Source of the DNA: Halorubrum ruber
GTDB lineage: Archaea; Halobacteriota; Halobacteria; Halobacteriales; Haloferacaceae
NCBI RefSeq assembly: GCF_018228765.1
Contig: NZ_CP073695.1
Span: 682,001-746,000 of the forward strand
DNA: 64,000 bases
Direction of reading: 5' to 3'
This document shows positions 14,382 to 52,030 of this stretch, in pieces (position 1 is the stretch's first letter; each line of letters opens with the position of its first letter). The translations under genes and the position numbers were made by a program. The notes beneath the pieces are model-generated. The model saw only the letters and a list, made by a program, of their open reading frames with translations. It was not told where the DNA came from and did not search any database.

Positions 14382-14552
14382 TTCTTTTATAAATAGTTGA
14401 CAGCGGATCGGCGGTGAACATCTTCAAAGCCCCAGTCGCTCGGTTATAAGCCGCTGACTGTGAATCGGCGGTGAACACCTCCAAAGCCCCAGCCGCTCGT
14501 TTATAAACAGCTGGCTGTGGATCGGCGGTGAACACCTCCAAAGCCCCAGCCG
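14382..14552 (-). repeat. 57-bp phased array, copy A (three units)
   Basis: Read on the minus strand, units begin CGGCTGGGGC at 14552 and 14495 and CGACTGGGGC at 14438, exactly 57 bp apart. Each contains a GGCGGTG/CACC-type inverted repeat and a TTTATAA-like box near its end. The first unit is also the 3' edge of element body A. Degenerate remnants, including another CTTATAAATAG at about 14322-14332, extend to the ferredoxin stop. Confidence 0.9.
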
Positions 14553-14817
14553 TGAGGCCGCCGTACGCTCGCTGCGCGCTTCACTCGGTCGCTCACTCCG
14601 TTCGCTCCCTCGCTCCAGTGCTTACGTCGCCTACGGCGGCCTCACGGCTGCCCCTTTGAGTCCCGTCCCGCCCACGGCTCCGCACGGCACCTCACGCCTC
14701 CCCAGCCTCGTCGGGCGCATCCTTCGGGCTCCCTTCGGTCGCCCTCGGAGCGCCCGACTCCCTCGCGCGTGCGACTCGCGGCCGTCGCTTCGCTCCGGCC
14801 GCTCGCCGGCACGCGCC
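14539..14817 (-). ncRNA. structured dispersed element, copy A (candidate RNA gene)
   Basis: Best-preserved reference copy. On the minus strand it starts GGCGCGTGCC (14817) and folds as a hairpin closed by GCGCGUGC/GCACGCGC, then GAGGGAGUCGGGCG paired with CGCCCGACGAGG, then constant GGCUGGGGAGGCGUGAGGUGC, then a long stem. That stem has CAAAG/CUUUG, a GGG/GGG internal loop, CAGCCG/CGGCUG and a 13-bp copy-specific helix with arms at 14553-14565 and 14632-14644. The palindrome CTATTTATAAATAG (14827-14840) is just upstream and could act as TATA box, although the spacing to the first stem (20 nt from TTTATAA) is shorter than ideal. No protein is plausible in any frame. It could be an RNA gene or a MITE-like mobile repeat. 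Confidence 0.6.
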
Positions 14818-27604: not shown

Positions 27605-27619
27605 CGGCCCCGTCGCGCC

Positions 27620-27801
27620 GGTCACCGCTCGGTCCGTTCCCGCGCGGTCACCGCTCGGTCCGTTCCCGCGCGGTCACCGCTCGGTCCGTTCCCGCGCGGT
27701 CACCGCTCGGTCCGTTCCCGCGCGGTCACCGCTCGGTCCGTTCCCGCGCGGTCACCGCTCGGTCCGTTCCCGCGCGGTCACCGCTCGGTCCGTTCCCGGC
27801 G
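27620..27801. repeat. seven tandem 26-bp repeats
   Basis: Units begin GGTCACCGCTCGGTCC at 27620, 27646, 27672, 27698, 27724, 27750 and 27776; the first six are identical and the last has one extra base near its end. They fill the spacer between the 3' ends of two convergent genes (27604 and 27805). Perfect identity indicates recent expansion. Confidence 0.95.
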
Positions 27802-27804
27802 CGA

Positions 27805-28317
27805 TTACCGGTCGGCGCCGTCGGACTCCGTCGCGCGGATCCGGCGGAGCTGGTGGGTCACGCCCGCGAGCGCGACGAGCAGGACCGCGAGGTTGAACAC
27901 GGCGAGCGCGACGGACTGGTAGGCCGGGTCGAACCACGTGCGGATCGCGTTGCCGGACTGGCTGTAGAAGCCCCAGCCGGCCACGACCGCGAGCAGCGAC
28001 AGCGCGGCCAGCCCGACTCGGTCGAGCAGGCCGCGGAGGTCGTCGGTCGAGAGGCGGTCGAGCCCGCCGGCGTCGACCGGCTCCGTCCATCCGTTCGCGT
28101 CGGTGCGGTCGGCGTCCGCCTCCGTGCGGTCGGGAGCGGTCGCCGTGCGTTCGGGGTCCGTGCGGTCGGTCGCGTCGGTGTCGTCTGTCATTGGCTGTGG
28201 TGGGTCGGGGGTGTGATCGCCGTCGTCGGTCGCGGGGTCGTCTGTCGCGGGGTCCGTCGCCGGTTCGTCGGCGTCCGGATCGTCGGTCGGGCCGTCGCGG
28301 GGCCGGTCGTTCGTCAT
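27805..28317 (-). CDS. membrane protein with long acidic N-terminal tail
   Basis: 170 residues. Residues 1-85 are low-complexity Asp/Thr/Pro (DDPATDDGDHTPDPPQP region, repeated DPATDD), then two hydrophobic segments (RVGLAALSLLAVVAGWGFYS and SVALAVFNLAVLLVALAGVTHQL) and a short charged end. It overlaps the last four bases of the upstream surface-protein gene (ATGA-type coupling), so the two are probably translated together. Function unknown; possibly a partner of the DUF7490-like protein. Confidence 0.7.
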   Translation of the reverse strand: MTNDRPRDGPTDDPDADEPATDPATDDPATDDGDHTPDPPQPMTDDTDATDRTDPERTATAPDRTEADADRTDANGWTEPVDAGGLDRLSTDDLRGLLDRVGLAALSLLAVVAGWGFYSQSGNAIRTWFDPAYQSVALAVFNLAVLLVALAGVTHQLRRIRATESDGADR

Positions 28318-29933: not shown

Positions 29934-30013
29934 ACGAGTGGATTCGCCGGCCCCGAATTTGAACCCTCGGCTGTACGTTGTACTCGCTGTGACGGTGGCC
30001 ACTATTGAAGCCC

Positions 30014-30085
30014 CAGCCGCTCGGCCGTACGACGATACTGCTTATAAGTAGCGAAGCGACACGAACGCCATCGAAGCCCCAGCCG
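30014..30085 (-). repeat. 3' repeat units of copy B (66-bp spacing)
   Basis: Minus-strand CGGCTGGGGC starts at 30085 and again at 30019, 66 bp apart instead of 57, with CTTATAA between. This is the most degenerate array of the five, consistent with an older copy. Confidence 0.75.
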
Positions 30086-30327
30086 CGAGGCGGTCAGACG
30101 CTCGCTGTGCGCTTCAGTCGCTCACTGCGTTCGCTCCTTCCAGTGCTTGCGTCGCCTCTGACCGCCTCGCGACTGCCCCTTCGAGTCCCGCCCGCCCGCA
30201 CAGCCCCGCACCTCTCACCTCCCCAGCCTCGGCGGACGGCCCGGCGCAGGCGGAGCCGCGCCGGGCCGCCGCCTCCCTCGCGGGCACCTCGCGGCCGCCG
30301 AGGGCGGCCGCTCGGCGGCGCGCCGCC
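30072..30327 (-). ncRNA. structured dispersed element, copy B (most diverged)
   Basis: Same order of segments as copy A on the minus strand, between two co-directional genes. Base changes are compensatory: CGAAG/CUUCG replaces CAAAG/CUUUG; GGCGG/CCGCC replaces GUCGG/CCGAC; the 13-bp arms (30086-30098 and 30157-30169) are perfectly complementary but unrelated to those of other copies. One closing pair is G-U (CAGUCG/CGGCUG). The 5' hairpin closing stem is weakened. CTATTTATACG (30335-30345) precedes it and lies seven bases from the suhB stop. Confidence 0.55.
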
Positions 30328-40040: not shown

Positions 40041-40129
40041 CGTCTCCTCTCGTACCCGCGGTCGACGTATCAACGTTACCGTTTGCGGGCGACCGCGACA
40101 GCAACCGTTTATAAATAAATCAAGCAGTC

Positions 40130-40432
40130 GGCGCGTGCCTGCGAGCGGCCGCCCTCGGCGGCCGCGAGGCAGCACGCGCGAGGGAGTCGGTGGTCCGGAG
40201 CGAAGCGGAGGACCACCGACGAGGCTGGGGAGGCATGAGGCTGCGGTGCCGTGCGGGGCGGGACTCAAAGGGGCAGCCGGGAGGCCGCAGTAGGCGTTCA
40301 CGAGAGCGGAGCTCTCGTGAGCCAATCAGAACGCTCCGCGTTCTGATGACGACGTAAGCACCGCAGGGAGCGAGTGTAACGAGCGACCGAGGAGCGCAAC
40401 GAGCGTACTGCGGCCTCCCGGCTGGGGCTTTG
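40130..40432 (+). ncRNA. structured dispersed element, copy C (longest)
   Basis: Plus-strand copy upstream-facing priS. GGCGCGTGCC starts at 40130, 22 bp after the TTTATAAATA box at 40108-40117. Helices: GCGCGUGC/GCACGCGC hairpin with perfect inner stem; GUCGGUGGUCC/GGACCACCGAC; CAAAG/CUUUG (40266-40270, 40428-40432); CAGCCG/CGGCUG (40274-40279, 40419-40424); 13-bp arms 40280-40292 and 40406-40418, perfectly complementary. The apical region contains two extra hairpins absent from other copies (CACGAGAG/CTCTCGTG and TCAGAACGC/GCGTTCTGA). Any short open frame across it is a by-product of the repeats. Confidence 0.6.
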
Positions 40433-40720
40433 GCGGTGTTCACCGCTGGTTTTCAGGGAGCAGCGTATCGCCGAGCGGCTGGGGCTTTGGCGGTGTTCAC
40501 CGCTGGTTTTCAGGGAGCAGCGTATCGCCGAGCGGCTGGGGCTTTGGCGGTGTTCACCGCTGGTTTTCAGGGAGCAGCGTATCGCCGAGCGGCTGGGGCT
40601 TTGGCGGTGTTCGCCGCCGATCCGCGATCAACTATTTATAACTGGGCGGCTGGGAGATTTGGCGGTGTTCGCCGTCGATCAGCCAACATCTATTTATAAA
40701 TAACGGACTGAGATTTCGAC
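40419..40720 (+). repeat. 57-bp phased array, copy C (six units)
   Basis: Units start at 40419, 40476, 40533, 40590, 40647 and 40704, each exactly 57 bp apart. The first three are identical; units four and five diverge in the second half and carry ACTATTTATAA boxes; the sixth is a degenerate start (CGGACTGAGATTT). The first unit begins with the 3' strand of the element's long stem, so every further unit is an extra copy of that strand without its partner. Confidence 0.95.
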
Positions 40721-47772: not shown

Positions 47773-48013
47773 GGCGCGTGCCTGCGAGCGGCCGTCAGGC
47801 CGCGAGCAGCACGCGCGAGGGAGTCGGTCGCCGAGCGAAGCGACGGCGACCGACGAGGCTGGGGAGGTGTGAGGTGCCGGGCTGTGCGGTGCGGGGTGGG
47901 ACTCAAAGGGGCAGCCGTGCGGTGGCCGCAGGCGACGCAAGCACCGCAGGAGCGAGTGAAACGAGCGACGAGGAGCACAGCGAGCGTGCGGCCACCGCAC
48001 GGCTGGGGCTTTG
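47773..48013 (+). ncRNA. structured dispersed element, copy D
   Basis: Most compact copy, plus strand, between the peptidase gene and the convergent dnaG. ATTTATAAAT at 47746-47755 precedes GGCGCGTGCC (47773) by 26 bp measured from TTTATAA. 5' hairpin with a GCGGCC/GGCCGC stem and tandem G-A mismatches; GUCGGUCGCCG/CGGCGACCGAC hairpin capped by GCGAAGC; CAAAG/CUUUG; CAGCCG/CGGCUG; 13-bp arms at 47918-47930 and 47987-47999 perfectly complementary. This copy is the best choice for structure probing because of its size. Confidence 0.6.
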
Positions 48014-48113
48014 GCGGTGTTCGCCGCCGATCCGCGAGCAGCTATTTATAAATAAACGACTGGAGCTTTGGCGGTGTTCGCCGCCGATCCGCAAGCAACT
48101 ATTTATAAATAGA
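48000..48113 (+). repeat. 57-bp phased array, copy D (two units)
   Basis: Units start at 48000 (CGGCTGGGGC) and 48057 (CGACTGGAGC), 57 bp apart, each with GGCGG...CCGCC hairpin and an ACTATTTATAAATA-type box; the second ends in CTATTTATAAATAG, 22 bp before the dnaG stop. Confidence 0.95.
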
Positions 48114-51659: not shown

Positions 51660-51739
51660 CAATTTGTAAAACGGTTCGTTCTGGGCCGGCGTTTCGTGTT
51701 CCTCTGCCACCGAGTCAGGGATGAACGCCGCCAAAGCCC

Positions 51740-51802
51740 CAGTCGCTCGCTTATAAATAGTTGATCACGGATCGACGACGAAGGCCTCCAAAGCCCCAGT
51801 CG
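51740..51802 (-). repeat. 57-bp phased array, copy E (one full and one broken unit)
   Basis: Minus-strand units start CGACTGGGGC at 51802 and 51745, 57 bp apart, with CTATTTATAAG between them. The second unit decays after GGCGGCGTTC (to about 51722). Confidence 0.9.
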
Positions 51803-52030
51803 TGAGGGCGGCGCACGCTCGCTGTGCTCCTCGCTCGCGCTGCTCGCTGCGGTGCTTACGTCGCCTGCGCCGCCCTCACGACTGCCCCTTTGAGTCCCAC
51901 CCCACCGCGACCGCACAGCACCTCACGCCTCCCCAGCCTCGTCGGCCTCCCTCCGCTTCGCTCCGGTCGGCCGACTCCCTCGCGCGCGCTCCTCGCGGCC
52001 GCCTTCGGCGGCCACTCGCAGGCACGCGCC
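51789..52030 (-). ncRNA. structured dispersed element, copy E
   Basis: Minus-strand copy between the symporter stop and the YqcI/YcgG gene. It keeps CAAAG/CUUUG, and the closing helix is CAGUCG/CGACUG, a C-G to U-A exchange relative to A, C and D. The 13-bp arms (51803-51815 and 51866-51878) are perfectly complementary. GUCGGCC/GGCCGAC closes the second hairpin; the 5' hairpin reads GCGCGUGC against GCGCGCGC (one U-G). Its upstream box has decayed to CTATTTCAACC (52044-52054), so this copy might be silent. Confidence 0.57.

Follow-up and report, generated by a model that had tools for sequence, protein, structure and literature searches.

Polar arrays of tandem units at the 3' edge of a haloarchaea-wide intergenic element that probably folds as RNA

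VNTR or MIRU-type repeats are short units in tandem that differ in number between relatives. CRISPR arrays consist of fixed-length units, receive additions at one defined end and show distal decay of the old ones. The HEARO and omega RNAs of IscB-TnpB elements are large, multi-copy structured RNAs of mobile origin, with some copies devoid of an ORF. Omega RNAs occur in archaea (PMC12558985). In Streptococcus pneumoniae, the BOX elements have the organization boxA-boxB(n)-boxC (PMC3049150).

The window analyzed here is a stretch of 64,000 nucleotides of the Halorubrum ruber genome (NZ_CP073695.1, positions 682,001 to 746,000), and it contains copies A to E of an element in which a body is followed by tandem units. 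Judged by layout, the pneumococcal BOX appears to be the nearest analogue, since both are interspersed non-coding repeats with predicted RNA folds and a variable number of tandem modules (PMC3049150). However, the internal boxB module folds apart from boxA and boxC, whereas the haloarchaeal module, likened to it by layout and not by sequence comparison, lies at the 3' end, provides in its first copy the strand that closes the body helix, and forms a polar array. As in VNTR and MIRU-type repeats, the unit number varies between relatives, but the haloarchaeal arrays are attached to, and polarized by, a structured element at about 100 or more loci per genome. Fixed-length units, growth at one end and distal decay are reminiscent of CRISPR. 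In contrast to CRISPR, the units have no spacers, their internal sequence drifts, their length is lineage-specific and no associated genes were found, with no ORF shared beside four relatives in annotated plasmids. Unlike HEARO and omega RNAs, the element shows neither an ORF nor an Rfam match.

The preliminary description of this DNA had reported starts phased at 57 bp, six in copy C, three in A and two each in D and E, in arrays that lie on the 3' side of the element and repeat its 3' strand. All of these starts were found, the sixth in degenerate form, and the location of the arrays is confirmed. By direct reading, the edges of copy C start at 40419, 40476, 40533, 40590, 40647 and 40704, with a step of exactly 57. 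The edge at 40647, CGGCTGGGAGATTTGG, carries one additional base internally, and the edge at 40704, CGGACTGAGATTTCG, is degenerate. A 58-bp spacing computed in this copy corresponds to the single-base insertion within the fifth edge, the edge starts being 57 apart. Period 57 was called by TRF for A, C and D. The edges of copy A are at 14552, 14495 and 14438 (- strand), and D and E have two units each, spaced 57. Copy B, located in the same window and missing from the preliminary description, has edges at 30085 and 30019 (- strand) with a spacing of 66. The edge 15-mer occurs exactly 7 times in the window and 16 times with up to three mismatches, compared to 2.0 expected and a maximum of 6 over 100 shuffles. 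The annotated features are as follows.

40108..40114, + strand: TTTATAA box 5' of the copy C body (from the sequence; box density 56-fold higher inside than outside elements)
40130..40418, + strand: copy C body, from GGCGCGTGCC to the end of the variable 3' arm, a predicted structured RNA (fold z -7.7; covariation in 42 paralogues)
40260..40279, + strand: conserved core GGGACTCAAAGGGGCAGCCG, the 5' strand of the terminal helix (core search, paralogue alignment)
40419..40475, + strand: copy C unit 1, the 3' strand of the terminal helix (covaries with the body)
40476..40532, + strand: copy C unit 2, identical to unit 1
40533..40589, + strand: copy C unit 3, identical to unit 1
40590..40646, + strand: copy C unit 4, diverged, TTTATAA present (unit comparison)
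40647..40703, + strand: copy C unit 5, diverged further, one base inserted in the edge, TTTATAA present
40704..40719, + strand: copy C sixth unit, degenerate start only (CGGACTGAGATTTCGA; direct reading)
14553..14817, - strand: copy A body
14382..14552, - strand: copy A array, three units of 57 bp
30086..30324, - strand: copy B body, GAAG/CTTC subtype, 5' end approximate
30005..30085, - strand: copy B unit 1 and the beginning of unit 2, spacing 66
47773..47999, + strand: copy D body
48000..48113, + strand: copy D array, two units of 57 bp
51803..52030, - strand: copy E body
51689..51802, - strand: copy E array, two units spaced 57

We regard the class-wide, RNA-like family to which these bodies belong as a more important discovery than the arrays, and file the element among interspersed structured repeats. 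Single-sequence folds of the body are far more stable than those of shuffles (z -7.7 and -6.4). In the alignment of 42 paralogues, two-sided changes were found at 38 of 69 consensus pairs and purine-rich loops are strongly conserved; part of the two-sided change could stem from conversion between copies instead of stepwise compensation, since whole stems sometimes swap between subtypes at the priS and D loci. The body and unit 1 together form the closing helix CAAAG-GGG-CAGYCG / CGRCTG-GGG-CTTTG. At the diagnostic Y:R position, unit 1 gives a non-pair in a single copy out of 160, with no C-A mispair in 101 cases of a body C, and covaries with the body (p=5e-10 and 7e-10 in two samples). Wobbles at this pair are one-directional, with 7 and 16 T-G but 0 and 0 C-A in the two samples, the pattern that a folded sense strand would give. 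In the arm helix, 19 G-U were counted versus 23 A-C, including 15 A-C at one internal-loop site of a subtype.

With up to one mismatch, the core GGGACTCAAAGGGGCAG occurs 185 times in the host genome and, at the same stringency, 4 to 176 times per genome in 34 other genomes of the genus and not at all in 24 genomes of other genera. A covariance model of the core detected the element in 183 of 242 haloarchaeal genomes, representing 61 of 74 genera, with copy numbers reaching 96 per genome outside Halorubrum. All 25 positives among 197 sampled genomes of the phylum are haloarchaeal, none of the non-haloarchaeal genomes having the element, and viral contigs and phage records gave no matches. Rfam searches at gathering and permissive thresholds yielded no credible match, the sole gathering-score match being a neighboring tRNA. 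No description of the element was found in the literature, which is weak evidence given a search limited to papers outside subscription. Neither Rfam nor the searched papers appear to include this covarying structured element, which about three quarters of the sampled haloarchaeal genomes carry and which reaches about 185 copies per genome. Judging from sequence comparisons, the body is probably an old, haloarchaea-wide, multi-copy intergenic element that folds as a structured RNA on the sense strand and would be transcribed. If so, it would rank among the most abundant structured RNA families of archaea.

For the host genome (3.02 Mb, single contig), whose closest named relatives at the priS locus belong to Halorubrum, bodies and units were counted in 864 kb sampled as stretches. 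There, 71 of 74 bodies have at least one downstream same-strand unit, a fraction that is probably too high because the stretches were picked partly by unit matches, and the number of units per body ranges from 0 to 8. The units are contiguous and do not follow a constant-repeat-plus-spacer arrangement. Their spacing is exactly 57 in 82 of 93 cases, with 51, 54, 56, 58, 63, 66, 108 and 120 making up the remainder. The fixed length had been taken as the sign of a mechanism that counts 57 bases, and this idea is not supported by the wider survey, in which the deviating periods named beforehand as grounds for its rejection were in part encountered: 57 prevails in the host genome, but copy B is spaced 66 and other lineages have periods of their own. 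For instance, some arrays of other Halorubrum, at single loci, run at 51 or 63 throughout. In other genera the tandemly repeated unit is again this segment of the 3' side, GGGGCTTTC followed by 36-66 bases, and its length is specific to the lineage, the periods being 45 (g77, G317), 50 (g21), 54 (g40, g39), 57 (g27), 66 (G352), 75 (g42) and 53-57 (g17). A search for exact-pattern pairs matched 37 of 391 genomes, five of which (g74) have a different, miniature arrangement, while a reversed control gave very few matches. Since other lineages have other periods, 57 would be inherited by copying and not set by a universal count; arrays record repeated duplication, and a fixed period need not imply counting.

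Two internal features had been ascribed to the units. The TTTATAA box was said to occupy the same place in most of them; 68 of the 93 units of the host genome that are not last in their array have it at unit position 46, but units 1-3 of copy C lack it. The distance from edge to box is indeed conserved (46, sometimes 43), last units included, while the intervening sequence drifts. The GGCGGTG/CACCGCC inverted repeat assigned to each unit proved less regular: a weaker version with GGAGGTG is frequent, and the folds of individual units are no more stable than those of shuffled sequences (z -0.4 to -1.6). A coding tandem repeat was rejected, with stops present in all frames and not clearly depleted relative to column shuffles.

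The arrays are polar. Among 41 arrays of at least three units, 40 have a body-proximal pair of higher identity than the farthest pair, namely 17/17 of the host genome (identity 0.88 vs 0.66, p=3e-4), 13/13 of other Halorubrum and 10/11 of other genera, where the exception, L262, is reversed. Restricted to unit positions 16-45, the host genome keeps this polarity (0.85 vs 0.60). In four-unit arrays the identity of successive pairs falls outward from 0.96 to 0.87 and 0.72, five-unit arrays are also graded, and two-unit arrays have an identity of 0.66, like the distal pair. From the similarity of proximal pairs, the stepwise outward decay and the resemblance of two-unit arrays to the distal pair, we infer that new units most likely arise adjoining the body. 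The contrast between first and last pairs is inflated, the last unit being by definition the last one detectable, a concern eased by the gradation of the middle pairs. Growth might be imitated by gene conversion among proximal units. At the orthologous priS locus, the unit number ranges from 1 to 4 between species.

The arrays, their polarity, the coupling of unit 1 and the lineage-specific periods are probably best explained by local duplications that recurred at the edge of the body, the element itself being old, class-wide and probably functional as RNA. The first downstream unit would close the terminal helix and be the sole unit tightly coupled to the body. The segment starting at the 3' strand of the body, or inside the 3' arm in some genera, would duplicate in tandem beside the body, so that new copies are body-proximal and older ones are displaced outward and decay. 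The period, copied from an existing unit, would be uniform per array and typical of the lineage (57 in Halorubrum). Copying is likely to proceed by slippage during replication or by unequal exchange, favored by the very stable hairpin, and later units may be mostly functionless. In such polar tails, tandem duplication at a hairpin would be recorded naturally, and genetically tractable haloarchaea are available for tests.

A plain VNTR, shaped by random unequal exchange and owing its polarity solely to decay at the edge and to purifying selection acting on unit 1, agrees with the runs of identical units and with unit numbers that differ between species. We find it rather unlikely, since selection on unit 1 would not hold unit 2 identical, positions 16-45 follow the same gradient, and no sampled long array has a homogeneous block detached from the body, the opposite being seen.

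The preliminary description had also proposed that every unit is a spare 3' strand, kept by selection to offer the single body strand alternative partners. This reading is weakened in Halorubrum, where later units mispair at the diagnostic position in 22 of 160 cases (about 14%) compared to the single case for unit 1, and GCGAG upstream of later units fails to extend the body helix. Tight coupling to the body is confined to unit 1, and later units look like decaying copies. In its favor, the edge is mostly retained in later units, and those that have diverged show a residual association with the body (p=5e-4), which can be explained by inheritance from the copied unit or by residual selection. 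Together with the constant edge-to-box distance in last units, this association suggests some constraint besides decay. Alternative pairing finds some support in one other genus, g17, where the entire 11-nt 3' arm recurs in unit 2 and agrees with the arm of the same locus (p=0.005). However, unit-2 arms outside g17 are not locus-specific (p=0.12), and a recently copied arm would explain the g17 case without selection. Overall, we consider selected spare strands unlikely.

Local duplication by slippage does not explain the steps of three in unit length. Altogether 39 of 57 genome-period combinations are divisible by 3 (p about 1e-7, phylogenetic kinship ignored), and the edge-to-box offsets of 46 and 43 likewise differ by 3. 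Triplet stepping is a property of RecA-family recombinases, which provide a speculative lead. A dedicated enzyme that places a copy of the 3' segment at the edge of the body, in the way that CRISPR adaptation adds repeats at the leader end, or units left as transposition-like footprints, would suit these shifts by three, the polarity that is strong in three samples and the boundaries of unit 2 at or within the 3' arm of the body. We hold either to be very unlikely, as the element has no ORF, none is common beside the four plasmid relatives, no partner gene was identified, inherited periods are also expected from ordinary duplication, and the comparison of occupied and empty D-locus sites gave no clean footprint. 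Little credence is likewise given to a haloarchaea-specific, large, multi-copy functional RNA with its own machinery that would add copies of the 3' end to the edge of the body in three-base steps, as a polar archive analogous but unrelated to CRISPR.

All 72 placeable copies are intergenic according to an ad hoc gene caller, in ++ (23), -- (19), convergent (22) and divergent (8) gene contexts. Convergent gaps are enriched and divergent gaps depleted for elements (p=3e-9), with no orientation bias along co-directional genes. This is the placement of an interspersed element avoiding promoters. A cis-regulatory leader RNA was rejected, because these contexts show no consistent orientation upstream of genes. 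The copies are old, since no near-identical body pair indicates recent transposition (the best is 91% over 260 bp, one 100% pair being discounted as two overlapping stretches) and several species share orthologous copies at the priS and D loci, where other species have a decayed version or none. TTTATAA is part of the element: it occurs at both element ends, is 56-fold denser within elements than elsewhere whatever the strand of the neighboring gene, and is missing from the two D sites without an element, in L046 and L057. When these sites were compared with the layout of a MITE, which has terminal inverted repeats and a target-site duplication, no clean duplication was resolved. Tandem promoters, with each unit retained for its box to supply several start sites, would fit this density and the fixed position but are highly improbable, as box retention is independent of the neighboring gene's strand (p=0.63 downstream, 0.81 upstream), elements prefer convergent and avoid divergent gaps, and the units shown from other genera mostly lack the box.

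Several minor features were observed. Bodies outside Halorubrum often form inverted pairs, at most a few hundred bases apart (L133, L138, L142, L144, L155, L161, L162, L203, L206, L207, L217, L259 and others). The miniature form in G210, G220, G224, G312 and G370 (g74) consists of GGGGCTTTC, immediately after it GGTGGGACTGAAAGGGGC, then a short hairpin and a second GGGGCTTTC. The body alignment contains three highly conserved GGGG tracts per body and one per unit, from which a G-quadruplex is conceivable at the high intracellular K+ of haloarchaea. Near-perfect mini-hairpins (e.g., TTCACGAGAGCGGAGCTCTCGTGA and ATCAGAACGCTCCGCGTTCTGAT) in variable loops of some bodies, such as at 40285-40350 of the window and about 1780-2480 of L047, look like independent insertions. 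A tandem repeat of 26 bp, unrelated to the element, has 7.7 copies with 97% matches at 27614-27815 of the window, just 3' of the end of a predicted minus-strand gene.
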